Of a stretch of 64,000 nucleotides of DNA, positions 54,837 to 64,000 are shown piece after piece. Below the pieces are notes generated by a model that saw only the letters and a list, made by a program, of their open reading frames with translations, made no database searches and was not told the DNA's origin. The position numbers and the translations under genes are program-made. The stretch is from the NCBI GenBank assembly GCA_001942185.1, contig MKJV01000090.1, positions 1 through 64,000 of the forward strand, given 5' to 3'. Each line of letters opens with the position of its first letter. Positions within the stretch are counted from its first letter, which is position 1. Source of the stretch: Pseudonocardia sp. CNS-004 (lineage in GTDB: Bacteria > Actinomycetota > Actinomycetes > Mycobacteriales > Pseudonocardiaceae).

Positions 54837-54874
54837 TGCGCCCTGCTCGCCGGTCCCGAACCTACGGTTGCGCC

Positions 54875-55897
54875 ATGCGGGCATGCGTGCTGAAGGAAGC
54901 CGGGCGCATCGACGTCGAGGACGTGCCGGAGCCGGTCGCCGGCGCGCACGACGTCGTCCTCGACGTGGCGGCCTGCGGCGTCTGCGGCTCCGATCTCGCC
55001 AGCCTCGCCGCCGGGCGCACCCCGGGCCAGGTGATGGGCCACGAGTTCGCCGGCACGGTGCGCGAGGTCGGCCGCGCCGTCACCGGCATCACTCCCGGCG
55101 ACCGGCTCACCGGGCTCCCGATCCAGCCCTGCGGGCGGTGCCGCCGCTGTGTCACCGCGCGGCCGCACCTGTGCGACGTCTGGGCGACCCGCAGCCTGGC
55201 CTTCGGCCTTCCCGGCGCCTTCGCCGAGCGCCTCCGGATCCCCGACGCCGTGCTCGGCGGCAACGTGCACCGGTTGCCCGACGGCATCGGGTTCGAGGAC
55301 GGAGCGCAGGTCGAGCCGCTCTCGGTGGCCGTGCACGCCCTGCGCCGCGCCGCCCCGGCCGCCGGACGGCCCGCGGTGGTGCTCGGGCTGGGCCCGATCG
55401 GCCTGCACGCCGCCCAGGTGTTGCGCGCCGCGGGCGCGCACCCGGTGTTCGGGGTGGAGCGCTCCGCGGTCCGGCGGGCGATCGGAGACGGTCTGGGCGT
55501 GCACACCCTCGACGGCACGGGGGACGTCGCCGCGCGGATCCACGACGAGCTCGGCGGCCGCGAGGTGGATCTCGTCGTCGAGGCGAGCGGTGCGGCGCCG
55601 CTGGTCTCCGCCGCACTCGACACCGTTCGCGCGGGCGGCCGGCTCGTGCTGGTGGCGCTCTACCACCGGCCACTCCCGATCGAGCTCGGCGACGTCGTGC
55701 GGCGCGAGATCACCGTGACCGGCAGCGCGATGGTCAGCCCTGCCGACTTCGCCGACGCCATCGACCTGATCCGCGCCGGCGCCGTGGCGACGGCGGGCCT
55801 CGTCACCCACCGCTACCCGCTCGACGACGTCATGGGCGCCTTCCACGCGCAGAGCGACACGGACAACTCGGTCAAGGTCATGATCCGCCCGGCCTGA
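54875..55897 (+). CDS. zinc-dependent alcohol/polyol dehydrogenase
   Basis: A 340-residue medium-chain dehydrogenase. Catalytic Zn ligands are in ACGVCGSD (Cys near 37) and MGHEFAG (His-Glu). The structural Zn loop is CGRCRRCVTARPHLC with four Cys. The Rossmann motif VVLGLGPIGLHAAQVL is complete. It resembles sorbitol/threonine/galactitol-type dehydrogenases. It is divergent from the AraC gene and starts an operon with a ketopantoate-reductase-like gene and rpiB, suggesting sugar-alcohol use. Confidence 0.9.
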   Translation: MRACVLKEAGRIDVEDVPEPVAGAHDVVLDVAACGVCGSDLASLAAGRTPGQVMGHEFAGTVREVGRAVTGITPGDRLTGLPIQPCGRCRRCVTARPHLCDVWATRSLAFGLPGAFAERLRIPDAVLGGNVHRLPDGIGFEDGAQVEPLSVAVHALRRAAPAAGRPAVVLGLGPIGLHAAQVLRAAGAHPVFGVERSAVRRAIGDGLGVHTLDGTGDVAARIHDELGGREVDLVVEASGAAPLVSAALDTVRAGGRLVLVALYHRPLPIELGDVVRREITVTGSAMVSPADFADAIDLIRAGAVATAGLVTHRYPLDDVMGAFHAQSDTDNSVKVMIRPA

Positions 55898-55968
55898 CGG
55901 GCGAACCCCACCACCCGGCGGACCACGCCGGTGCGCGGGCGGACTCGGTGTCCTGCGAGGCTTGGGCC

Positions 55969-56942
55969 ATGAGGTACGTGGTGATCGGGGCGGGCGCATC
56001 GGCGGCACGATCGGCGGGCGGCTGGCCGAGGCCGGGCGCGAGGTCGTGCTGGTGGCGCGGGGAGCACACCTGGCCGCGCTGCAGGAGTCCGGGCTGCGCC
56101 TGGACGACCCGGAGCGCTCGCGCACGCTGCGCCTACCCGCCGTCGGAGACGTCGGCGATGTCGGGTGGCGGGCCGATGACATCGCCCTGCTCTGCACGAA
56201 GACCCAGGACACCGAGGCCCTGCTCGACGCGCTGCACGCCGCGGCACCGGACGTGCCGGTCGTGTGCGCGCAGAACGGGGTGGCGAACGAACGGTTCGCC
56301 GCGGCCCGGTTCGCCGAGGTGCAGGCGATGTGCGTGATGCTGCCGGCCGAGCACCTCACGCCGGGCCGGGTCGTCGCCTACTCGGCGCCGGTGCCGGGTG
56401 GCCTCGACGTCGGGCGGTACCCGCACGGGGTCGACGAGCTCTCGGGGCAGATCGCGGCCGACCTCACGGCGGCCGGGTTCAGCGCGCTCGCCGACCCCGC
56501 GGTGATGCGGGCCAAGTACCGCAAGCTGCTGCTCAACCTGGCCAACGCCGCCGAGGCGGCGTGCGGCCCGGCGAGCCCCCGTCTCGCCGAGCTCACCGCG
56601 GCCGCCCGCGAGGAGGGCGAGCGGTGCCTCGCCGCGGCCGGGATCGCGGTCCTGTCCGTCGAGCAGGAGCGGGCGCGGCGCGACGGGCTGATCACGGAGC
56701 GGCCGGTGGCCGGTGAGTCGCGCGGCGGCGGGTCCACGTGGCAGAGCCTGCGGCGCGCCACCGGCTCGGTCGAGGCGGCCCACCTCAACGGCGAGATCAT
56801 CGAGCTCGGCCGCCGCCACGGCGTCCCGACACCGGTCAACTCGCTGCTGCTCGCCACGGTGATCCGGATGGCCGAGGGAGCCGAACAACCAGGCAGCCGC
56901 GACGCGGGGCAGCTGCTCGCATCGACGGGGAGGAGCATCTGA
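55969..56942 (+). CDS. 2-dehydropantoate 2-reductase-like (ApbA/PanE family; one frameshift)
   Basis: The N-terminal MRYVVIGAG and the following IGGTIGGRLAEAGREVVLVA together form the GxGxxG NADPH motif, but a base is missing between them at about 55999. Later family features are TQDTEALLDAL, VVCAQNGVANE (Asn region) and the C-terminal catalytic-domain Lys in AKYRKLLLNLANA (family K-x3-N-x2-N pattern). Repaired length is 324 residues. In a sugar operon it may reduce or oxidise a related 2-keto acid rather than make pantoate. Its TGA overlaps the rpiB ATG (TGATG). Confidence 0.87.
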
Positions 56943-57385
56943 TGAGAGTCGCACTCGGAGCCGACCACGCGGGGTTCCCGCTCAAGAGTTTCGTGCGGGA
57001 CGCGCTCGAACGCCTGGGGCACGACGTGCTCGACTGCGGCACCGACAGCGAGGAGCCGGTCGACTTCCCCGACATCACGGAGGCGACCTGCCTGGCGGTG
57101 CTCGACGGGCGCGCGGACCGGGCGGTGCTCGTGTGCGGGTCGGGGGCCGGCGCGATCATGGCGGCGAACAAGCTCGCCGGGATCCGGTGCGCGCTCGCCC
57201 ACGAGCCGTACTCCGCCCACCAGGCCGTCGAGCACGACGATGCCAATGCGATCGCCATGGGTGCGTGGCTCGTGCCGCGCGCACTGGTCGAGGAGATCCT
57301 CGACCGCTTCCTCTCGGCCACCTTCGACGACGACGAGGACACCGTCCGGCGCGTGGCGAAGCTGAACGCACTGGACGAGCGGTGA
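56942..57385 (+). CDS. rpiB: ribose-5-phosphate isomerase B / LacAB-type isomerase
   Basis: 147 residues, the usual RpiB length. ALGADHAGFPLK holds the phosphate/substrate Asp-His, AVLVCGSGAGAIMAANK has the catalytic Cys, and VEHDDANAIAMGAW corresponds to the HNDANV block of the family with Asp for the usual Asn. RpiB interconverts ribose 5-phosphate and ribulose 5-phosphate; actinobacterial homologues also isomerise tetrose phosphates or other sugars. Translationally coupled to the upstream gene by TGATG. Confidence 0.9.
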   Translation: MRVALGADHAGFPLKSFVRDALERLGHDVLDCGTDSEEPVDFPDITEATCLAVLDGRADRAVLVCGSGAGAIMAANKLAGIRCALAHEPYSAHQAVEHDDANAIAMGAWLVPRALVEEILDRFLSATFDDDEDTVRRVAKLNALDER

Positions 57386-57423
57386 CGCCGGGTTCCCGAC
57401 GCTGGCCTGCGTAGATCAACCCC

Positions 57424-57452
57424 TTGACCACTTGTCATACAAGTCCTATCGT
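57424..57452 (+). promoter_or_regulatory. promoter with palindromic operator in the spacer
   Basis: TTGACC (57424-57429) and TATCGT (57447-57452) form a -35/-10 pair with a 17-base spacer. ACTTGT-CAT-ACAAGT, a perfect 15-base dyad (57430-57444), fills the spacer. The half-site TTGT/ACAA is typical of GntR-family repressors. Binding there would block RNA polymerase. A second weak dyad CGGAA..TTCCG follows (about 57457-57471), then GGAAGGA upstream of the ATG at 57491. Confidence 0.7.
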
Positions 57453-57490
57453 CAGCCGGAAGCTACTTTCCGCTAGTCGGAAGGAACCGG

Positions 57491-58648
57491 ATGAAGATCA
57501 CCGAAGTGGTGCCGTGGCTTGTCGGCTCCGAGGGCACCGGTTGGGGCGAGTACCTGTTCGTGGAGGTGCGCACGGACGAGGGGGTCAGCGGCTGGGGTGA
57601 GATCACCACGACCACGCCGACGGCCAACCGCAGCATCGCCTCGATGGTCAGGCAGGTGACCGACCTGATCGCCGGGGACGACCCGGCGCGGATCGAGGAC
57701 ACCTGGCACAAGATCTTCCGCGCGTTCACGTACATGGGCAGCCGCGGGGCGGGCACGAACGTGGTGAGCGCGGTCGACATCGCACTGTGGGACATCCGCG
57801 GCAAGGTCCTCGGTCTGCCCGTGCACGAGCTGCTCGGCGGCAAGGTCCGGGACGACCTGCTGATCTACACCCACCCCAACCAGCGCCGGTTCGGCACCCG
57901 TGACGGGGTCGTCGAGGAGATCCGCGAGATCGTCGAATCCGGCCACACCGGCATCAAGTTCGATCCCTTCCCGGCACCCCCGGGCGTGTCCCTGGCCCAG
58001 GACCGCTACCTCGACGGGCGCATGAGCCGCGCCGAGGAGCGGCAGGCGATGGAGCTGACGGCGTTGATCCGCGAGGCCGCGGGCCCCGACGTCGAGCTCC
58101 TGATCGACGCGCACGGCCGGTTCGACGTACCGACCGCGATCCGGATGGGCCAGGCGCTGGACGACGTCGGCGACATCCACTGGTACGAGGAGCCGGTGCC
58201 GCCGGAGAGCTACCGCGCCCTCGAGCAGGTGCGCGAGCGCGTGCGCGTCCCGATCTCGGTGGGGGAACGGCTGCACACCCGGTGGGACTTCGTGCCGGTC
58301 CTGGAGAACCGGCTCGCCGACTTCGTGATGCCCGACGTGACGTGGACCGGCGGGATCTCGGAGCTGAAGAAGATCGCCACCATGGCCGAGGCGTACTACG
58401 TGCCGGTCTCGCCGCACGACGCCGCGGGCCCGGTCAACCTCGTCGCCGGCGGGCACGTGATGGCCACGGTGCCGAACTTCTACCGGATCGAATCCAGCCG
58501 CCACGACCTGAGCAGCTACAACCAGTTCCTCACCGTGCCGCTCGACAACAGCGGCGGCCGGCTGAAGCTCCCCCCGGCTCCCGGGCTGGGGCTCGACTTC
58601 GACCTCGAGCACCTGCGCGCCACCGCCAAGGACGGCTTCCACGGCTGA
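57491..58648 (+). CDS. galactonate dehydratase-like enolase-superfamily enzyme
   Basis: An intact 385-residue enzyme. The capping domain has VEVRTDEGVSGWGEITTTT and SAVDIALWDIRGKVLGLPVH. The barrel has GIKFDPF, LLIDAHGRFD (metal Asp and catalytic His), WYEEPVPPES (metal Glu), ISVGERLHTRWDF (metal Glu) and VSPHDAAGPVN (catalytic His). This is the D-galactonate/gluconate/mannonate dehydratase layout. It has its own promoter with a GntR-type operator and is followed by a strong hairpin, so it is probably monocistronic. Only distantly similar to the enolase-superfamily gene at 29677. Confidence 0.9.
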   Translation: MKITEVVPWLVGSEGTGWGEYLFVEVRTDEGVSGWGEITTTTPTANRSIASMVRQVTDLIAGDDPARIEDTWHKIFRAFTYMGSRGAGTNVVSAVDIALWDIRGKVLGLPVHELLGGKVRDDLLIYTHPNQRRFGTRDGVVEEIREIVESGHTGIKFDPFPAPPGVSLAQDRYLDGRMSRAEERQAMELTALIREAAGPDVELLIDAHGRFDVPTAIRMGQALDDVGDIHWYEEPVPPESYRALEQVRERVRVPISVGERLHTRWDFVPVLENRLADFVMPDVTWTGGISELKKIATMAEAYYVPVSPHDAAGPVNLVAGGHVMATVPNFYRIESSRHDLSSYNQFLTVPLDNSGGRLKLPPAPGLGLDFDLEHLRATAKDGFHG

Positions 58649-58654
58649 CCGGTC

Positions 58655-58688
58655 GCCGTCCCCGGGCGATCACCGCACCGGGGACGGC
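58655..58688. terminator. strong bidirectional hairpin terminator
   Basis: GCCGTCCCCGG (58655-58665) pairs perfectly with CCGGGGACGGC (58678-58688), an 11-bp stem with a 12-base loop between the convergent dehydratase and amidase genes. The amidase stop codon lies in the loop. There is no U-tract, as is common in high-GC actinobacteria. Confidence 0.7.
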
Positions 58689-60064
58689 ACGGGCAGCCGG
58701 TCCTGCACCTCGCGGGCGGCGGCGAGGCAGACGTCCTCGCGGTGCCGCGGGCCGATGAGCTGCACGCCCAGCGGCCGGCCGTCGACCACCCCCGTGGGTA
58801 CGGCCACCGCGGGCACGCCGACGCAGGTGGTGGCGGTGCACAGCCGCATGGCGAGCATCGCCCGCATCCCCTGGTCGGCGTCGAAGGGGTCGACGTCGAA
58901 CGGCCGCTCGGTGTAGACCGGTCCGAGCACCAGCGGGTACCGCTGCGCGAACGCGTCCCAGGCGCGCATCGCGCCGAACCGCGCGGCGGTGGCGGCGAGG
59001 TAGCCCTCCAGGTCGGCGGGCGGCATGCGCGCCATCGAGAGCTCCATGTGCTGCGCCGACTCGTCGGTGAGCAACCGCCGGAGCGTGGGCCAGCGCAGCC
59101 CGAACTCCGCGGTGATCAGCGTGCCGTACGCGGTGAGCGCCTCCGCGAGCTGCGGCGGCTCCGCCTCCTCCACCTCGTGGCCCGCAGCGGCCAGCGCCTC
59201 GGCGGCCCTCTCGAGCTCCGCCCGGATCTCGGGGTCCACGCCGAGCCCTGCCGGATCGACGCACAGCGCGACGCGCCGGGGCAGCGGCGTGCCCGCGACG
59301 TGCGGGACCGTGCGCGGGTCGGCCGGGTCGGCACCGGCGAGCACCGCGTGGACGACCTCCAGGTCCTCGACGGTGCGCGCGATCGGCCCGTCGACCGGGA
59401 ACAGCTGTGACGCGAGGGTGGGTTCCGTCCCGCCGATGCGGTGGTCCTGGGCGACGGCGCCGTAACTCGGCTTGAGCGCCGCGACTCCGCAGAACATCGC
59501 GGGCAGCCGGACCGACCCGCCCGAGTCGTTCCCGAGCCCGAGCGCGACCATCCCGGAGGCGACGGCGGCCCCGTCACCCCCGCTCGTGCCTCCCGGGGTG
59601 CGGATGGCCGTCCACGGGTTGCGGGTCTCGCCGAACAGCCTGCTCACCGTGGTGTTGCCGGCGAGCGCGAGGTCCGGCATGTTGCTGTGCCCGATCGGCA
59701 CCGCACCGGCCGCACGCAGCCTGCGCACCGGCGGGGCGTCGGCCGCTGCCACCGCGTCACGGAAGTGCGGCACGCCGTGGGTGGTGGCATACCCCGCGAC
59801 GTCGATGTTCTCCTTCACCGTGAACGGCACCCCGGCCAGCGGCCCGACCTCCTCGCCCGCCCGGCGTCGCTCGTCGACCCGGTCGGCATCGGCCAGCGCC
59901 TCGTCGAACCGGACCGTGACGGCGTTGATCGCCCCGTTCACGTCCTCGATGCGCGCGAGGCTTGCCTCGACGACCTCGCGCGCCGACACCTCACCCGCTC
60001 CGACCGCGCGGGCGACCGCCGCCGCGCTCCACGTCCAGACCTCGTCCACCAGCCCAGGATACAT
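58670..60064 (-). CDS. amidase (amidase-signature family)
   Basis: A 464-residue amidase-signature enzyme. The Ser-cisSer-Lys triad is visible: Lys in VPFTVKENIDVAG (near residue 85), cis-Ser in GTSGGDGAAVASG and nucleophile Ser in DSGGSVRLPA. The usual GGSSGG is changed to GTSGGDG, a mild deviation. The C-terminal CVGVPAVAVPTGVVDGRPLG block is normal. It hydrolyses an amide to acid plus ammonia. It follows a TetR gene by 27 bases, and its start codon overlaps a triple GATAC/GTATC repeat that may be the TetR operator. Confidence 0.9.
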   Translation of the reverse strand: MYPGLVDEVWTWSAAAVARAVGAGEVSAREVVEASLARIEDVNGAINAVTVRFDEALADADRVDERRRAGEEVGPLAGVPFTVKENIDVAGYATTHGVPHFRDAVAAADAPPVRRLRAAGAVPIGHSNMPDLALAGNTTVSRLFGETRNPWTAIRTPGGTSGGDGAAVASGMVALGLGNDSGGSVRLPAMFCGVAALKPSYGAVAQDHRIGGTEPTLASQLFPVDGPIARTVEDLEVVHAVLAGADPADPRTVPHVAGTPLPRRVALCVDPAGLGVDPEIRAELERAAEALAAAGHEVEEAEPPQLAEALTAYGTLITAEFGLRWPTLRRLLTDESAQHMELSMARMPPADLEGYLAATAARFGAMRAWDAFAQRYPLVLGPVYTERPFDVDPFDADQGMRAMLAMRLCTATTCVGVPAVAVPTGVVDGRPLGVQLIGPRHREDVCLAAAREVQDRLPVPSPVR

Positions 60065-60080
60065 ATCTGTATCTGGATAC
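60058..60080. promoter_or_regulatory. GATAC/GTATC inverted-repeat operator at the amidase start
   Basis: GATAC (60058-60062), GTATC (60069-60073) and GATAC (60076-60080) form two nested dyads with spacers of 6 and 2 bases. The AT content contrasts with the surroundings. The site overlaps the amidase ATG and lies just after the TetR gene, suggesting repression of the amidase. Confidence 0.55.
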
Positions 60081-60091
60081 GATGCCGAATA

Positions 60092-60691
60092 TCAGGTGCG
60101 GCTCCAGAGCCGGTCGAGCAGTGCGACCGCATCGGCGACGACGTCGGCCGGCAGCTCGTCGGGGGTGAGCATGCGCTGCAGGAGCAGGCCGTCCTCGAGG
60201 GCGTGGACGATCAGCGCGAGCCGCTGCGGGTCGGCGGGCGGCTCGATCCCCCGGGCGCGGAAACCGGCCGCGAGCGCCTGCGCGTGCGCGTCCGTCGCCA
60301 GCCGCTCGCGGGCCGCGAGCGCGGGCCGCACCTCCGGGTGGCGCAGCGCGTGCAGCAGCAGCTCCAGCCGCAGCGCCAGCCACTCGTCGAGGTGCTCGGC
60401 CCGGGCCCGGTTCCACTCCCGCATCCGCTCGTGGCCGTTCCCGTCGGCCACCAGCTCACGCACCTCGGCCAGCTCCCGCTCGGTGCGCCGCTGCAGCAGC
60501 TCGCGCACCAGATCGTGCTTGTCGGCGAAGTTGCCGTAGAAGGCGCCACGGGTGAAGCCGGCCCGCTCGGCGATCTGCTCCACCGACGTGCCGTTCACCC
60601 CGCGCTCCGCGAACAGCTCCGCGGCCGACTCGAGCAGCCGCTCACGGGTCCTCGCGCGGCTCTCCTCGCGGGTCAGACGCTTGCTCACCAC
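60092..60691 (-). CDS. TetR-family regulator
   Basis: A 199-residue TetR protein. The HTH is at residues about 14-60 (LLESAAELFAERGVNGTSVE, then AGFTRGAFYGNFADKHDLV). The C-terminal helical domain has WLALRLELLLHALRHPEVRP and ALIVHALEDGLLLQRML, typical of TetR_C effector domains. It lies 19 nt after the LeuD-like gene and 27 nt before the amidase, all on the minus strand, so it may autoregulate the whole operon. Confidence 0.9.
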   Translation of the reverse strand: MVSKRLTREESRARTRERLLESAAELFAERGVNGTSVEQIAERAGFTRGAFYGNFADKHDLVRELLQRRTERELAEVRELVADGNGHERMREWNRARAEHLDEWLALRLELLLHALRHPEVRPALAARERLATDAHAQALAAGFRARGIEPPADPQRLALIVHALEDGLLLQRMLTPDELPADVVADAVALLDRLWSRT

Positions 60692-60710: not shown

Positions 60711-61226
60711 CTACCGCTGCGCGCCTCGGTCCTCGAACAGCTCGGGGCGTGACCTGGCCAGCGCGATCAGCCCACCGGCCTCGAGCATGTCGAGCAGGAA
60801 CGCATCCGGCGGCAGCACCTGGCGTTCGACGCCCGTCGTCTCGTTGCGGAAGTGTCCGGCGGCGACGTCGACGCTCAGCACGTCGCCGTCGGACACGAGG
60901 CCGGTGACGCCGGGGAGCTCGAGCACCGGGAGGCCCACCTCGAACGCGTTGCGGTAGAAGGTGCGCGCGAAGGTCTCGGCCACCACGGCGCCGATGCCCG
61001 TGGCCCGCAGCGCCTTCACCGCGATCGCCCGCCCCGACGACTGGCCGAAGTGCTTCCCGGCGACGACGACATCGCCGGCGGCCACCTCCAGCGGGAAACG
61101 CGGGTTCAGGTCCTCCAGCACGTGCTGGACGATCACCTCCATCGGCTCCACCACGTACTTGGTCTTCACGAGCCGGTCGGTCGGGATGTTGTCGCCGAAC
61201 GTCCAGCAACGGCCCCGCGTGGTCAT
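60711..61226 (-). CDS. aconitase/isopropylmalate isomerase-like small subunit 2 (altered active-site motif)
   Basis: A 171-residue LeuD-like swivel-domain protein (CWTFGDNIPTDRLVKTKYV at the start, FARTFYRNAFEVGLPVLEL later). The usual substrate-binding motif GxxFGxGSSRE is here GKHFGQSSGRAIAVKAL: the catalytic Ser-Arg pair and the Glu are not conserved in the normal order. The ATG overlaps the stop of large subunit 2 (ATGA), so the two form a dedicated pair. Because both partners deviate, the pair probably catalyses a different reaction from citrate or isopropylmalate isomerisation. Confidence 0.85.
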   Translation of the reverse strand: MTTRGRCWTFGDNIPTDRLVKTKYVVEPMEVIVQHVLEDLNPRFPLEVAAGDVVVAGKHFGQSSGRAIAVKALRATGIGAVVAETFARTFYRNAFEVGLPVLELPGVTGLVSDGDVLSVDVAAGHFRNETTGVERQVLPPDAFLLDMLEAGGLIALARSRPELFEDRGAQR

Positions 61227-62476
61227 CGCAGCTCCCGGGCGTCGGTGATCGTGCCGGTGACCGCGGACGCCGCCACCGTCGGCGCGGCCGCGAGGTACAT
61301 GCTCGACTCGGGGCTCCCGTTGCGGCCCGGGAAGTTGCGGGCGTGCGTGGAGATCATCGCCTCGCCCGCCGCCATCGCGCCCATGTTGTAGGCCTGGTTG
61401 GAGCCGGTGCTCGGCGGGAACCACGTCGCCCCGGCCTCGTGCAGGGCCAGCACCAGCCCTTCCTGCAGAGCTCTCGTGAACACCGCCCGGCTGGACGGCA
61501 CCAGGTTGAACCGGACGCCCGGGTGGACCCGCCGCCCGCGCAGCACGGCGGCGGCGGCGCGGAAGTCCTCCAGCCGGCCGCCGGCGTGCCCGCCGAGCTC
61601 GGCCCACTGCACCGGCCGACCCGCCACGTCCGGGACGTCGGCGAGGTTGCCGACCGTCGGCGGGCAGGCCACCTGCGGCGCCACCTCACCGACGTCGAAC
61701 CGCAGCACCGTGGACGCCTCTCCCCCGTCGCTGCGCTCGTACCGGTCCGCGGCGCCGGCCGGCAGGCCCGCCACGAACGCCTCGGTGACCTCGTCCGGCT
61801 CCACGAAGCTGCACTTCGCGCCCAGGTCGACGCACAGCAGCGGGAAGAGCCAGCGGTCCCAGAACCCCAGCTCCTTGACGTACGGGCCGGCGAACTCGAC
61901 CGCCGCGTAGATCAGCCCGCCCTCCCCGATCCGCCCGACCAGCCACAGCGCGACGTCCCGCGCCGTGGTGCCTGGCGGCGGCGTGCCGACGAGCTCGACG
62001 CGCACCGTTTCCGGCACCCGGAACCACGCCTTGCCGTGCGGGAGCACGGTGCCGGCGTGCGAGTCGTTGCCCAGCGCCACCGCGAACGCACCGATGGCGC
62101 CGTGCACGGGCGTGTGGCTGTCGGAGCCCACGACGATCCCGCCGGGGCGCACCAGCCCGCGCTGCACGACGGCGTGGTGGATGTTGCCGTTGCCGCAGTC
62201 CAGGAGGTGGGTGCCGGTGCGCCGGGCCCACTCCCGGTTGGCCTGAAGCATCGCCGCGGCGTCCTCCGTGGGTGGCGAGAAGTGGTGGTCGAACACCATC
62301 GCCACCCGCTCCGGGTACCGGACCTCCCCACCGACCTGCTTGTCGAACACGCGCGACGTCAGGTAGCCGCTCAGGTCGTGCATGATCAGCAGGTCGACCT
62401 CGGCGACGACCACGTCGCCGGGCTCCACCGACCGGCGACCGCTCGCCCGCGCCAGGATCTTCTCGACCATGTTCAT
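61223..62476 (-). CDS. aconitase-family large subunit 2 lacking all Fe-S cluster cysteines
   Basis: A 417-residue LeuC-like protein. The fold is clear: LLDCGNGNIHHAVVQRGLV, VGSDSHTPVHGAIGAFAVAL and ARNFPGRNGSPESSMYLAAA match the aconitase superfamily. But the three cluster ligands are gone. Where the neighbouring paralogue has IGSCANAKYDDL, this has LGGHAGGRLEDF (His at the Cys position), and NPGCGACAG is replaced by PPSTGSNQAYN. There is no Cys at all after residue 271. The ATG overlaps the upstream gene. A cluster-independent hydro-lyase, isomerase or binding role is possible. Reading frame and codon use are normal, so it is not a pseudogene. Confidence 0.9.
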   Translation of the reverse strand: MNMVEKILARASGRRSVEPGDVVVAEVDLLIMHDLSGYLTSRVFDKQVGGEVRYPERVAMVFDHHFSPPTEDAAAMLQANREWARRTGTHLLDCGNGNIHHAVVQRGLVRPGGIVVGSDSHTPVHGAIGAFAVALGNDSHAGTVLPHGKAWFRVPETVRVELVGTPPPGTTARDVALWLVGRIGEGGLIYAAVEFAGPYVKELGFWDRWLFPLLCVDLGAKCSFVEPDEVTEAFVAGLPAGAADRYERSDGGEASTVLRFDVGEVAPQVACPPTVGNLADVPDVAGRPVQWAELGGHAGGRLEDFRAAAAVLRGRRVHPGVRFNLVPSSRAVFTRALQEGLVLALHEAGATWFPPSTGSNQAYNMGAMAAGEAMISTHARNFPGRNGSPESSMYLAAAPTVAASAVTGTITDARELR

Positions 62477-63735
62477 GCCAGCAGCTCCTGCGGGTCGCTG
62501 ATCACACCACGCACGGCCGTCGCCGCCGCCGTGGCCGGGCTGCCCAGGTAGATGCGGCTGTGGTAGCTGCCCATCCGGCCCTGGAAGTTGCGGTTGGCCG
62601 TGGAGAACGTGACCTCCCCGTCGGCCATCGCGCCGCCGACGCCCGCGCACGCCCCGCACCCGGGGTTGGTGATCGTCGCGCCCGCCGCCAACAGCGTGGA
62701 GACGATCCCGTCGCTCGCGGCCTTCGCCATGATCCGGCTCGACGCCGGCGTGACGATCAGCCGCACGCCCGGTGCCACGGTCTTCCCGGCGAGCACGTCG
62801 GCCGCGATCGCGAGGTCGTCGTACTTCGCGTTGGCGCACGAGCCGATGAACACCTGGTCGACCTTCGTCCCGGCCACCTCCGTCACCGGCACCACGTTGT
62901 CGACGGTGTGCGGCACGGCCACCTGGGCCACGAGCGAACGCCCGTCCACCCGCTCCACCTGCCGGTACTCCGCGTCCGGGTCGGGCAGCAGCACCTCGTA
63001 GGAGGCCGGGTCGGCGCCCGCCTCGTCGAGGTACGCCCGCGTCGTGGCGTCGGGCGGCACGAACGCGTTCTTCGCCCCCATCTCCATCGCGAGGTTGCAG
63101 AGCGTCATCCGCTCCGACACCGACATCGCCTCGACGTAGCTGCCGTGGAACTCCACCGAGCAGTACGTGGCCCCGTCGGCGCCGATGTCGCCGATCAGCC
63201 GCAGCATGACGTCCTTGGCGTACGTCCCGCGCGCGAGCGGCCCGTCCACCTCCACCCGGATCGACTCCGGCACCTTCATCCAGAGCTTGCCCGTGACCCA
63301 GGTGGCGGTGATCTCGCTGAACCCCACGCCGGTGCCGAACGCGCCCAGTGCCCCGTAGATCGTGGAGTGCGAGTCGGTGCCGATGATCACCTCGCCCGGC
63401 TTCACGAGGCCGCGCTCCATCAGTACGACGTGCGCGATCCCCGCGTTGACGTCGAAGAACTTCCTCACCCCGCTGCGCTGCGCGAAGTCGCGGCACAGGG
63501 CGTGGTAGCCGGCCGTCTTCGCGTTGTCGGCCGGGGCGATGTGGTCCATGACCATCGCGATCCGGTCGACGTCGTACAGCTCCGGCCACCCCATCCGCTC
63601 GAGCGTGCGGATGCAGCGCCAGCTCGCGGTGTGGCTCATGTAGAGATCGGGGAAGGCGTCCACGATCTGGCCCGGGACCAGGTCCTTCTCCCCCGACGCC
63701 CGCTCCAGGGCCTTCTGTGCGAACGTCCTACCCAC
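62473..63735 (-). CDS. aconitase/isopropylmalate isomerase-like large subunit 1 (canonical)
   Basis: A 420-residue LeuC/HacA-type large subunit. The 4Fe-4S ligands are C300 (IGSCANAKYDDL), C360 and C363 (NPGCGACAG). Other blocks are IGTDSHSTIYGALGAFGTGV, KLWMKVPESIRVEV and NRNFQGRMGSYHSRIYL. The 3-isopropylmalate, homoaconitate and dimethylmalate-type hydro-lyases cannot be separated by eye. The GTG start overlaps the stop of small subunit 1 by 8 bases. No leuA or leuB is present, so a leucine-biosynthesis role is not supported; the operon context is catabolic. Confidence 0.9.
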   Translation of the reverse strand: MGRTFAQKALERASGEKDLVPGQIVDAFPDLYMSHTASWRCIRTLERMGWPELYDVDRIAMVMDHIAPADNAKTAGYHALCRDFAQRSGVRKFFDVNAGIAHVVLMERGLVKPGEVIIGTDSHSTIYGALGAFGTGVGFSEITATWVTGKLWMKVPESIRVEVDGPLARGTYAKDVMLRLIGDIGADGATYCSVEFHGSYVEAMSVSERMTLCNLAMEMGAKNAFVPPDATTRAYLDEAGADPASYEVLLPDPDAEYRQVERVDGRSLVAQVAVPHTVDNVVPVTEVAGTKVDQVFIGSCANAKYDDLAIAADVLAGKTVAPGVRLIVTPASSRIMAKAASDGIVSTLLAAGATITNPGCGACAGVGGAMADGEVTFSTANRNFQGRMGSYHSRIYLGSPATAAATAVRGVISDPQELLA

Positions 63736-64000
63736 GTTGTCCTGCCTCCGCTTCCCGCATGAGGTACGGGATGAGCCCGCCCGCCTCCAAGATCACGCGC
63801 AGCCCGGGCGGGTACGGCGCGAACGTGAACGTCCCGGACCCGACCGTGACGGTCCCGGCCGTGTAGTCGACGAGCACCTCGCCGCCGTCCTCGATCGCGT
63901 CCACGGCGTCCGGGCACTCCACGGCCACGAGCCCGGTGTTGATCGCGTTGCGGAAGAACACCCGCGAGAACGATCTCGCGACCACCGCACCGATCCCGGC
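63728..64000 (-). CDS. aconitase/isopropylmalate isomerase-like small subunit 1 (5' partial)
   Basis: The frame is open to the window edge, so the N-terminus lies beyond 64000. The visible 90 residues include AVVARSFSRVFFRNAINTGL, the standard LeuD block, and the swivel-domain end with GLRVILEAGGLIPYL. The GSSRE motif would be upstream and cannot be checked. It is the first visible gene of the minus-strand operon and the natural partner of large subunit 1. Confidence 0.85.
   Translation of the reverse strand, partial: AGIGAVVARSFSRVFFRNAINTGLVAVECPDAVDAIEDGGEVLVDYTAGTVTVGSGTFTFAPYPPGLRVILEAGGLIPYLMREAEAGQRG

Follow-up and report, generated by a model that had tools for sequence, protein, structure and literature searches.

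The window analysed in the present study is a 64,000-nucleotide stretch of DNA from Pseudonocardia sp. CNS-004, at the end of which lie four ORFs of the aconitase family whose adjoining frames overlap by 4 to 8 bases:

60711-61226, minus strand: SSU_B (P0003, 171 aa), a dedicated small (swivelling-domain) subunit with the motif HFGQSSGRA
61223-62476, minus strand: LSU_B (P0001, 417 aa), a large subunit of the aconitase family that lacks the three cysteines of the cluster
62473-63735, minus strand: LSU_A (P0002, 420 aa), the canonical paralogue with all three cluster cysteines
63728-64000, minus strand: SSU_A, 3' part only, the small subunit of the canonical pair, with its start beyond the window

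The P0001 frame is intact and opens with ATG, as read from the translation of 61223-62476 on the minus strand, and ATGA overlaps at 62473-62476 and 61223-61226 couple LSU_B to LSU_A and SSU_B respectively. An earlier sequence-only reading of this DNA had claimed an intact frame coupled to a small subunit of its own, and in both respects (417 aa from an ATG start, and the ATGA overlap with SSU_B) it was correct. The SSU_A gene continues in L110 (G000:C90:63000-78000), where the genes upstream of it on the same strand encode OCD (ornithine cyclodeaminase/mu-crystallin family), M24b, M24a, an ABC ATPase, a permease, a substrate-binding protein and MarR. The nearest PDB match of OCD is a pyrroline-2-carboxylate reductase. 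M24a matches Peptidase_M24, but its metal ligands are altered: the positions at which metallopeptidases of the family bind metal are occupied by Glu, Gln, His, His and Asp. Its PDB matches are prolidases first, with creatinase and ectoine hydrolase more distant; M24b gave a match to the creatinase N-terminal domain just under the cut-off (21.8 against 22) and nothing more. M24a and M24b (L110:2325-4809; L037:4880-7086) form a second paralogue pair in the operon in which one member is degenerate.

Family membership and comparison with known systems

P0001 passes PF00330 with 202.3 bits against a gathering score of 28.7 and misses TIGR01343 (hacA_fam; 353.5 against a cut-off of 385.7), TIGR02086 (IPMI_arch; 354.9 against 410.15) and NF001614 (370.3 against 385), three cut-offs above which LSU_A lies. 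The equivalog cut-offs for LEU2, leuC and HacA are reached by neither P0001 nor P0002 and therefore do not discriminate. The predicted model of LSU_B has the full-length fold of domains 1-3, with pLDDT values below 50 in the active-site loops 119-139 and 355-364, and this predicted fold matches the Methanocaldococcus jannaschii isopropylmalate/citramalate isomerase MJ0499 (4kp1, 4nqy) and homoaconitase MJ1003 (4kp2) over the full length with TM values of 0.90 and 0.89. The M. jannaschii proteins are 33-35% identical with LSU_B and have the acid-base residues in common with it, but they retain the three cluster cysteines, as Fe-S hydro-lyases, whereas all three are missing from LSU_B. Mitochondrial aconitase (5acn, 1c96) is a single chain with a [4Fe-4S] cluster, and its residues C358, C421, C424, N258 and N446 are all replaced in LSU_B. 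By profile, predicted fold and catalytic residues, LSU_B is accordingly classed as a LeuC/HacA-type member of the aconitase superfamily that lacks the defining cluster ligands. Among the relatives of aconitase, the iron regulatory proteins IRP1 and IRP2 act in a cluster-free state.

Aconitase X (AcnX) belongs to the same superfamily as LSU_B and also has an altered cluster site. P0001 gave no match to the aconitase X profile PF04412 at E 0.001, and the cysteine sites given for AtAcnX in PMC8184944 are absent, the His147 equivalent being His in 44/44 LSU_B rows and the C421 and C424 columns being free of Cys. Judged either by profile or by cysteine pattern, LSU_B is not an aconitase X. Among the matches listed from open-licence papers, a scope that leaves most subscription papers and all preprints outside, no description of this clade was found.

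Residues of the cluster site

Columns were mapped to mitochondrial aconitase via profile alignment to 1c96, and D100 and H101, which lie outside that alignment, were placed by what we take to be their FDH motif. The LSU_B rows comprise the window and 43 of the 44 loci recovered in a scan of genome contigs (L079 is too split to align), and 41 of these rows are in frame, the remainder being L060, which is out of frame after approximately residue 342, and L074 and L075, which end early; the lone His357, Gln360 and Gln379 in the 44-row counts all come from L060.

The translation of LSU_A contains the motifs IGSCANAK (C300) and NPGCGACAG (C360, C363), and these three cysteines align to H297, T357 and N360 of P0001, so that the motifs, coordinates and cysteine numbering with which the earlier reading had claimed their replacement were right. 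Cysteine occurs at any of the three ligand columns in 0/44 LSU_B rows, nor does it occur there in L124, a divergent member described below. Across the 41 in-frame rows, the C358 column is always His and the C424 column always Asn, whereas the C421 column holds Thr (36), Ala (3) or Ser (2). The two asparagine columns, N258 and N446, both of which we take to touch the cluster, have become Leu (36), Met (3) or His (2) and Ala (35), Ser (3) or Val (3) respectively, and the E262 column is Asp in 41/41 (D217 in P0001). Arg is retained at both R447 and R452 in the same 41 rows, and D100, H101, H147, D165, S166 and H167 are unchanged in 44/44. At the six changed columns, LSU_A has Cys/Cys/Cys/Asn/Asn/Glu in 37/37 A rows, which were chosen without regard to Cys; a further 28 canonical C rows, selected for a G[ST]CT motif that 28/29 loci possess (L015 failed), have the first Cys by construction. 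Of the catalytic residues checked in this alignment, only those of the cluster shell have changed, bar the conservative Glu to Asp exchange at 262, and we predict from these residues that LSU_B contains no iron.

H297 and E293 are present in 44/44 LSU_B rows of the pattern-retrieved set, which is in keeping with a mononuclear metal enzyme, still a hydratase, in which His297, Glu293 and the pocket Asp/His residues would hold one metal ion in place of the free iron. Of the 44 loci, 30 contain no exact retrieval pattern outside the two cluster loops, and the pattern ending at H297 is present in 29 of those 30, so the uniform His297 owes something to the way the rows were retrieved; it is also found, however, in 12/12 rows of alignment A1 that are retrievable via other patterns and in 17/17 loci from the family of the window (L081-L097). 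Alignment A1 consists of the window and 37 of the 44 loci, with L041, L042, L060, L074, L075, L076 and L079 left out. A pattern-free profile search of 198 genomes yielded L124, which is 55.7% identical and has Thr/Ser/Asn at the ligand columns, with Thr at the H297 position. It keeps E293, the Asp for E262, and D63, H64, H100, D119, H121, R380 and R385. An earlier EPR study proposed a one-Glu, two-Cys mononuclear Fe for aconitase X (PMC5144071), but later work identified this centre as a [2Fe-2S] cluster (PMC8184944). With His297 lost in L124, although E293 stays, and its invariance elsewhere inflated by retrieval, we regard the mononuclear metal centre as unlikely.

The two former cluster loops are nevertheless more conserved than the rest of the protein, less strongly so when only independent rows are used: leaving out the pattern residues, 9/16 loop positions are invariant against 84/353 elsewhere over 38 rows (p 0.0067), and with 12 independent rows the values are 10/16 against 141/353 (Fisher p 0.064; entropy p 0.0035).

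Two other cysteines bear on the idea that an Fe-S cluster has been relocated or is differently ligated, as in aconitase X, with Cys94, Cys222 and other residues as its ligands. Cys94 is found in 44/44 and Cys222 in 42/44 LSU_B rows, both being mostly non-Cys in canonical rows, and aconitase X demonstrates that cysteine sites can move (PMC8184944). These are, however, the only two conserved cysteines, and in L124 they are replaced by Ser and Ala. Their counterparts in mitochondrial aconitase are Pro141 and Thr267, which are not the sites used by aconitase X. Since L124 does without both, a relocated cluster is very improbable. A check for displaced cysteines had been called for by the sequence-only reading, and at the sequence level it thus uncovered two that are near-invariant among pattern-retrieved members and both absent from L124. 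The same reading had noted that no cysteine follows residue 271, which is true of P0001 and not of the clade, 21 of 38 A1 rows having later cysteines at unconserved positions.

The small subunit

SSU_B matches TIGR02087 at 140 bits against a cut-off of 108.95, thereby passing as a small subunit of LeuD/DmdB type, and matches 3vba with an E value of 1.3e-36; SSU_A also matches TIGR02087 and related models, but below the cut-off because the gene is cut at the end of the window. In a hand-chosen alignment of 28 SSU_B and 9 SSU_A rows, the equivalents of S642 and R644 (S64 and R66) are kept in 28/28 and 9/9 rows examined respectively. A match to SSU_B adjoins LSU_B in 44/44 loci, although it is partial in L060 and L072. 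Five anaerobe-type loci (L048, L061, L070, L073 and L074) have two tandem SSU_B genes after LSU_B, and one LSU_B may pair with two small subunits there.

Distribution, phylogeny and selection

The scan of genome contigs gave 44 LSU_B loci with 55-92% identity in at least six phyla. Carriers include Pseudonocardia, Amycolatopsis, Saccharopolyspora, Geodermatophilus, Actinomadura, Streptomyces, Naasia, Acidimicrobiales MAGs, Alicyclobacillus, Lachnospiraceae, other Bacillota, deltaproteobacterial MAGs labelled Myxococcota, Burkholderiales, other Pseudomonadota, spirochaetes and one Chloroflexota MAG. A search free of peptide patterns located LSU_B in 18/390 genomes of the family of the window, and in 18/18 of these a second large-subunit match, 37-40% identical, lies directly beside it. 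All of these prevalence counts, each at the threshold used, are lower bounds, as the first-pass search scores few candidates per genome. A close match occurred in 1/396 genomes, namely the own genome (next best, 42% identity); at E 1e-140, two counts gave 1/398 (the genome at the centre of the set) and 2/398 (one being the centre genome), and another set gave 2/198, again including its centre genome. In a set of 197 genomes, LSU_B was found in one, its own, where the other match is canonical. Relaxing the threshold to E 1e-90 matched 133/198 genomes, and by their ligand columns only L123 and L124 among L123-L152 are of the LSU_B type, the other 28 (L125-L152) having the three cysteines. In 13 of these three-Cys subunits (L131, L132, L134, L137-L139, L142-L146, L150 and L151), pairwise alignment placed Glu or Cys at the His147 equivalent, which may indicate another subfamily or an alignment slip.

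In a tree of 109 large subunits, the 44 LSU_B rows are split off by one branch (SH-aLRT 100, length 1.38), and the canonical A rows do not group together but form one set of 30 and another of 7; the tree comes from a quick search with midpoint root, no bootstrap and no outgroup. The clade anticipated by the sequence-only reading therefore exists, but GGHAGG, one of the motifs it was supposed to share, is not universal, L124 in locus L156 reading GGTPGG and SSGSNQ. These data clearly show that the LSU_B-type protein is not a one-off, but forms a distinct clade, with members in an actinobacterium of soil type and, scattered, in bacteria from several phyla.

NG86 dN/dS values of LSU_B against five relatives were 0.15-0.32, near those of LSU_A (0.17-0.29), and LSU_B is thus under purifying selection; the sequence-only reading had argued for selection from the intact frame and the coupling to SSU_B. 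Sequencing error or a pseudogene is ruled out by the intact frame, the close relatives in other genomes and these dN/dS values. Plasmid cargo was also rejected: among 72,556 PLSDB plasmids, 16 records matched at E 1e-60, the best of them with 39.1% identity, and none is a close member, although L037 sits on a plasmid-titled record. The authors of PMC8184944 proposed that the aconitase superfamily had an ancestor without a cluster. For LSU_B, loss of the cluster appears likelier than a relic because LSU_B is closely similar to IPMI-type subunits, a choice that the tree, having no outgroup root, cannot decide.

Gene context among loci

By tblastn with short contigs included, LSU_A is present in 38/44 loci, OCD in 31/44, M24a in 29/44, M24b in 21/44 and PreA in 7/44. 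A leucine biosynthesis duplicate was considered and is disfavoured by this catabolic-type neighbourhood. Seven anaerobe-type loci have a PreA-like protein together with a different canonical LSU_A. LSU_A is missing from six loci. In four of them (L050, L053, L065 and L072) the contig is short or begins at LSU_B, whereas L077 and L078 have flanks of at least 8 kb. LSU_A was then searched for genome-wide in eight genomes. In the genome of L065, a 68% LSU_A lies at another contig end, and in that of L078 there are 39-42% matches on other contigs; the search gave nothing beyond LSU_B itself in the MAGs of L050 and L053, and only LSU_B plus one partial match on another contig in the genome of L077. 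In L077 and L078, LSU_B adjoins an MmgE/PrpD protein and a fumarate-lyase-family protein, the PDB matches of which include 3-carboxymuconate cycloisomerase and trans-aconitate decarboxylase. Four loci (L051, L054, L057 and L156) contain UbiD-like genes. The order in L156 is OCD, M24, M24-like, LSU_B, SSU_A, LSU_A, SSU_B, in which the four subunit genes (L156:3055-6542) are interleaved and not grouped as pairs.

Such an arrangement would suit a non-catalytic partner, LSU_B/SSU_B forming a hetero-complex with LSU_A/SSU_A in which its part is regulatory or structural, as would the canonical-type large subunit in 38/44 loci (directly adjoining in 18/18 family genomes) and a further paralogue pair in the same operon, M24a/M24b, with one member recognisable and the other degenerate. 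A scaffold would not, however, be expected to retain the full acid-base set in both subunits, LSU_B/SSU_B occur without a neighbouring LSU_A in L077 and L078, and the A partner belongs to two separate tree groups, meaning that the partner changes and LSU_B does not. A purely non-catalytic role is therefore quite improbable in our estimation. Of the two options put forward in the sequence-only reading, a cluster-free enzyme and a regulatory or scaffold partner, the evidence favours the enzyme, because the acid-base and substrate residues are kept while the cluster shell is replaced, the Ser and Arg of the small subunit are kept, and the pair occurs without a neighbouring canonical partner in L077 and L078.

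Proposed function

We tentatively propose that LSU_B/SSU_B is a cluster-free, active acid-base isomerase or epimerase that would act on a polycarboxylate beside an Fe-S dehydratase in a catabolic pathway, a reading suggested by the residue pattern to which we give somewhat less than an even chance. LSU_B and SSU_B would form a LeuC/LeuD-like heteromer which, without the [4Fe-4S] cluster, would still be a working enzyme, and a di- or tri-carboxylate would be bound in the old aconitase pocket by Asp100, His101, His147, Asp165, Ser166, His167, Arg447 and Arg452, together with Ser642 and Arg644 of the small subunit. The retained Ser/His acid-base groups would then shift a proton, leading to epimerization or a double-bond (1,3-proton) shift, and no Lewis-acid iron would be needed because no hydroxide leaves in such reactions. 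In most hosts the Fe-S pair LSU_A/SSU_A would carry out the dehydration, the OCD/mu-crystallin protein a reduction (a PreA-like protein instead in anaerobe-type loci) and the M24 proteins C-N hydrolysis. We infer heteromer formation, catalysis, reaction type, substrate and step order alike, the reaction type from residue logic and from a gene context that varies among loci.

Comparable gene sets are found in two known pathways. EutA-C have roles in hydroxyectoine use. In the ectoine eut cluster, an M24 hydrolase occurs with an OCD protein and a dehydratase-like protein, and eutBC are dispensable for growth of Halomonas on ectoine (PMC3187862). The use of cis-3-hydroxyproline involves a pyrroline-2-carboxylate reductase together with a racemase-like gene and a dehydratase of the aconitase superfamily, the AcnX hydroxyproline enzyme being the partner of that reductase (PMC5144071). 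By analogy with these clusters, the slot left for LSU_B/SSU_B would be that of an isomerase or epimerase, i.e. a proton shuttle with no Lewis acid. In fungal homocitrate metabolism, one isomerization is shared by two aconitase-family enzymes (PMC3556520).

The same residue evidence would also accommodate a cluster-free lyase, in which the same pocket decarboxylates the substrate or expels a group that leaves more readily than water, such as an amine. The fumarate-lyase-family and MmgE/PrpD neighbours in L077 and L078 and the UbiD-like genes listed above are consistent with this; an Fe-S hydro-lyase-type pair is, however, usually already present in the operon, and we consider a lyase rather unlikely. 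The MmgE/PrpD fold differs from the aconitase fold, so that the likeness to LSU_B, which such a protein adjoins in L077 and L078, is one of functional analogy only. For the isomerase or epimerase proposal, MmgE/PrpD offers a precedent: its dehydratase, decarboxylase and epimerase members act on aconitate-like compounds and amino-polycarboxylates and include 2-methylcitrate dehydratase, cis-aconitate decarboxylase and iminodisuccinate epimerase, whereby one fold serves both dehydration and epimerization (PMC7347537).

Textbooks use the aconitase superfamily to illustrate how a site-differentiated Fe-S cluster catalyses a reaction, and even its known deviants, the characterized enzymes of the aconitase X type, depend on a cluster. 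LSU_B may carry out different chemistry without iron-sulfur. Extended to the clade, the isomerase/epimerase proposal would describe aconitase-superfamily proteins minus the Fe-S cluster that act as cofactor-free proton-transfer enzymes in series with a canonical Fe-S paralogue, within one catabolic operon and in at least six phyla, which we again hold to be possible but short of probable. A clade that has lost the cluster shell with the rest kept would permit a direct test of what the cluster contributes, for which the four-subunit operon offers a matched Fe-S/non-Fe-S pair. The proposal would, moreover, name a pathway whose genes the family libraries used here place only as isopropylmalate-dehydratase-like subunits, and it is a warning against family-based transfer of Fe-S annotation.

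Other genes near the operon

Downstream of SSU_B on the same strand, positions 58670-60691 of the window hold directly adjoining genes for a TetR regulator and an amidase. Beyond these, at 54848-58648 on the plus strand, lie genes for Zn-alcohol dehydrogenase-like, ApbA/PanE-like, RpiB-like and enolase-superfamily (galactonate dehydratase-like) proteins, which from their sequences look like a separate sugar-acid catabolic cluster.
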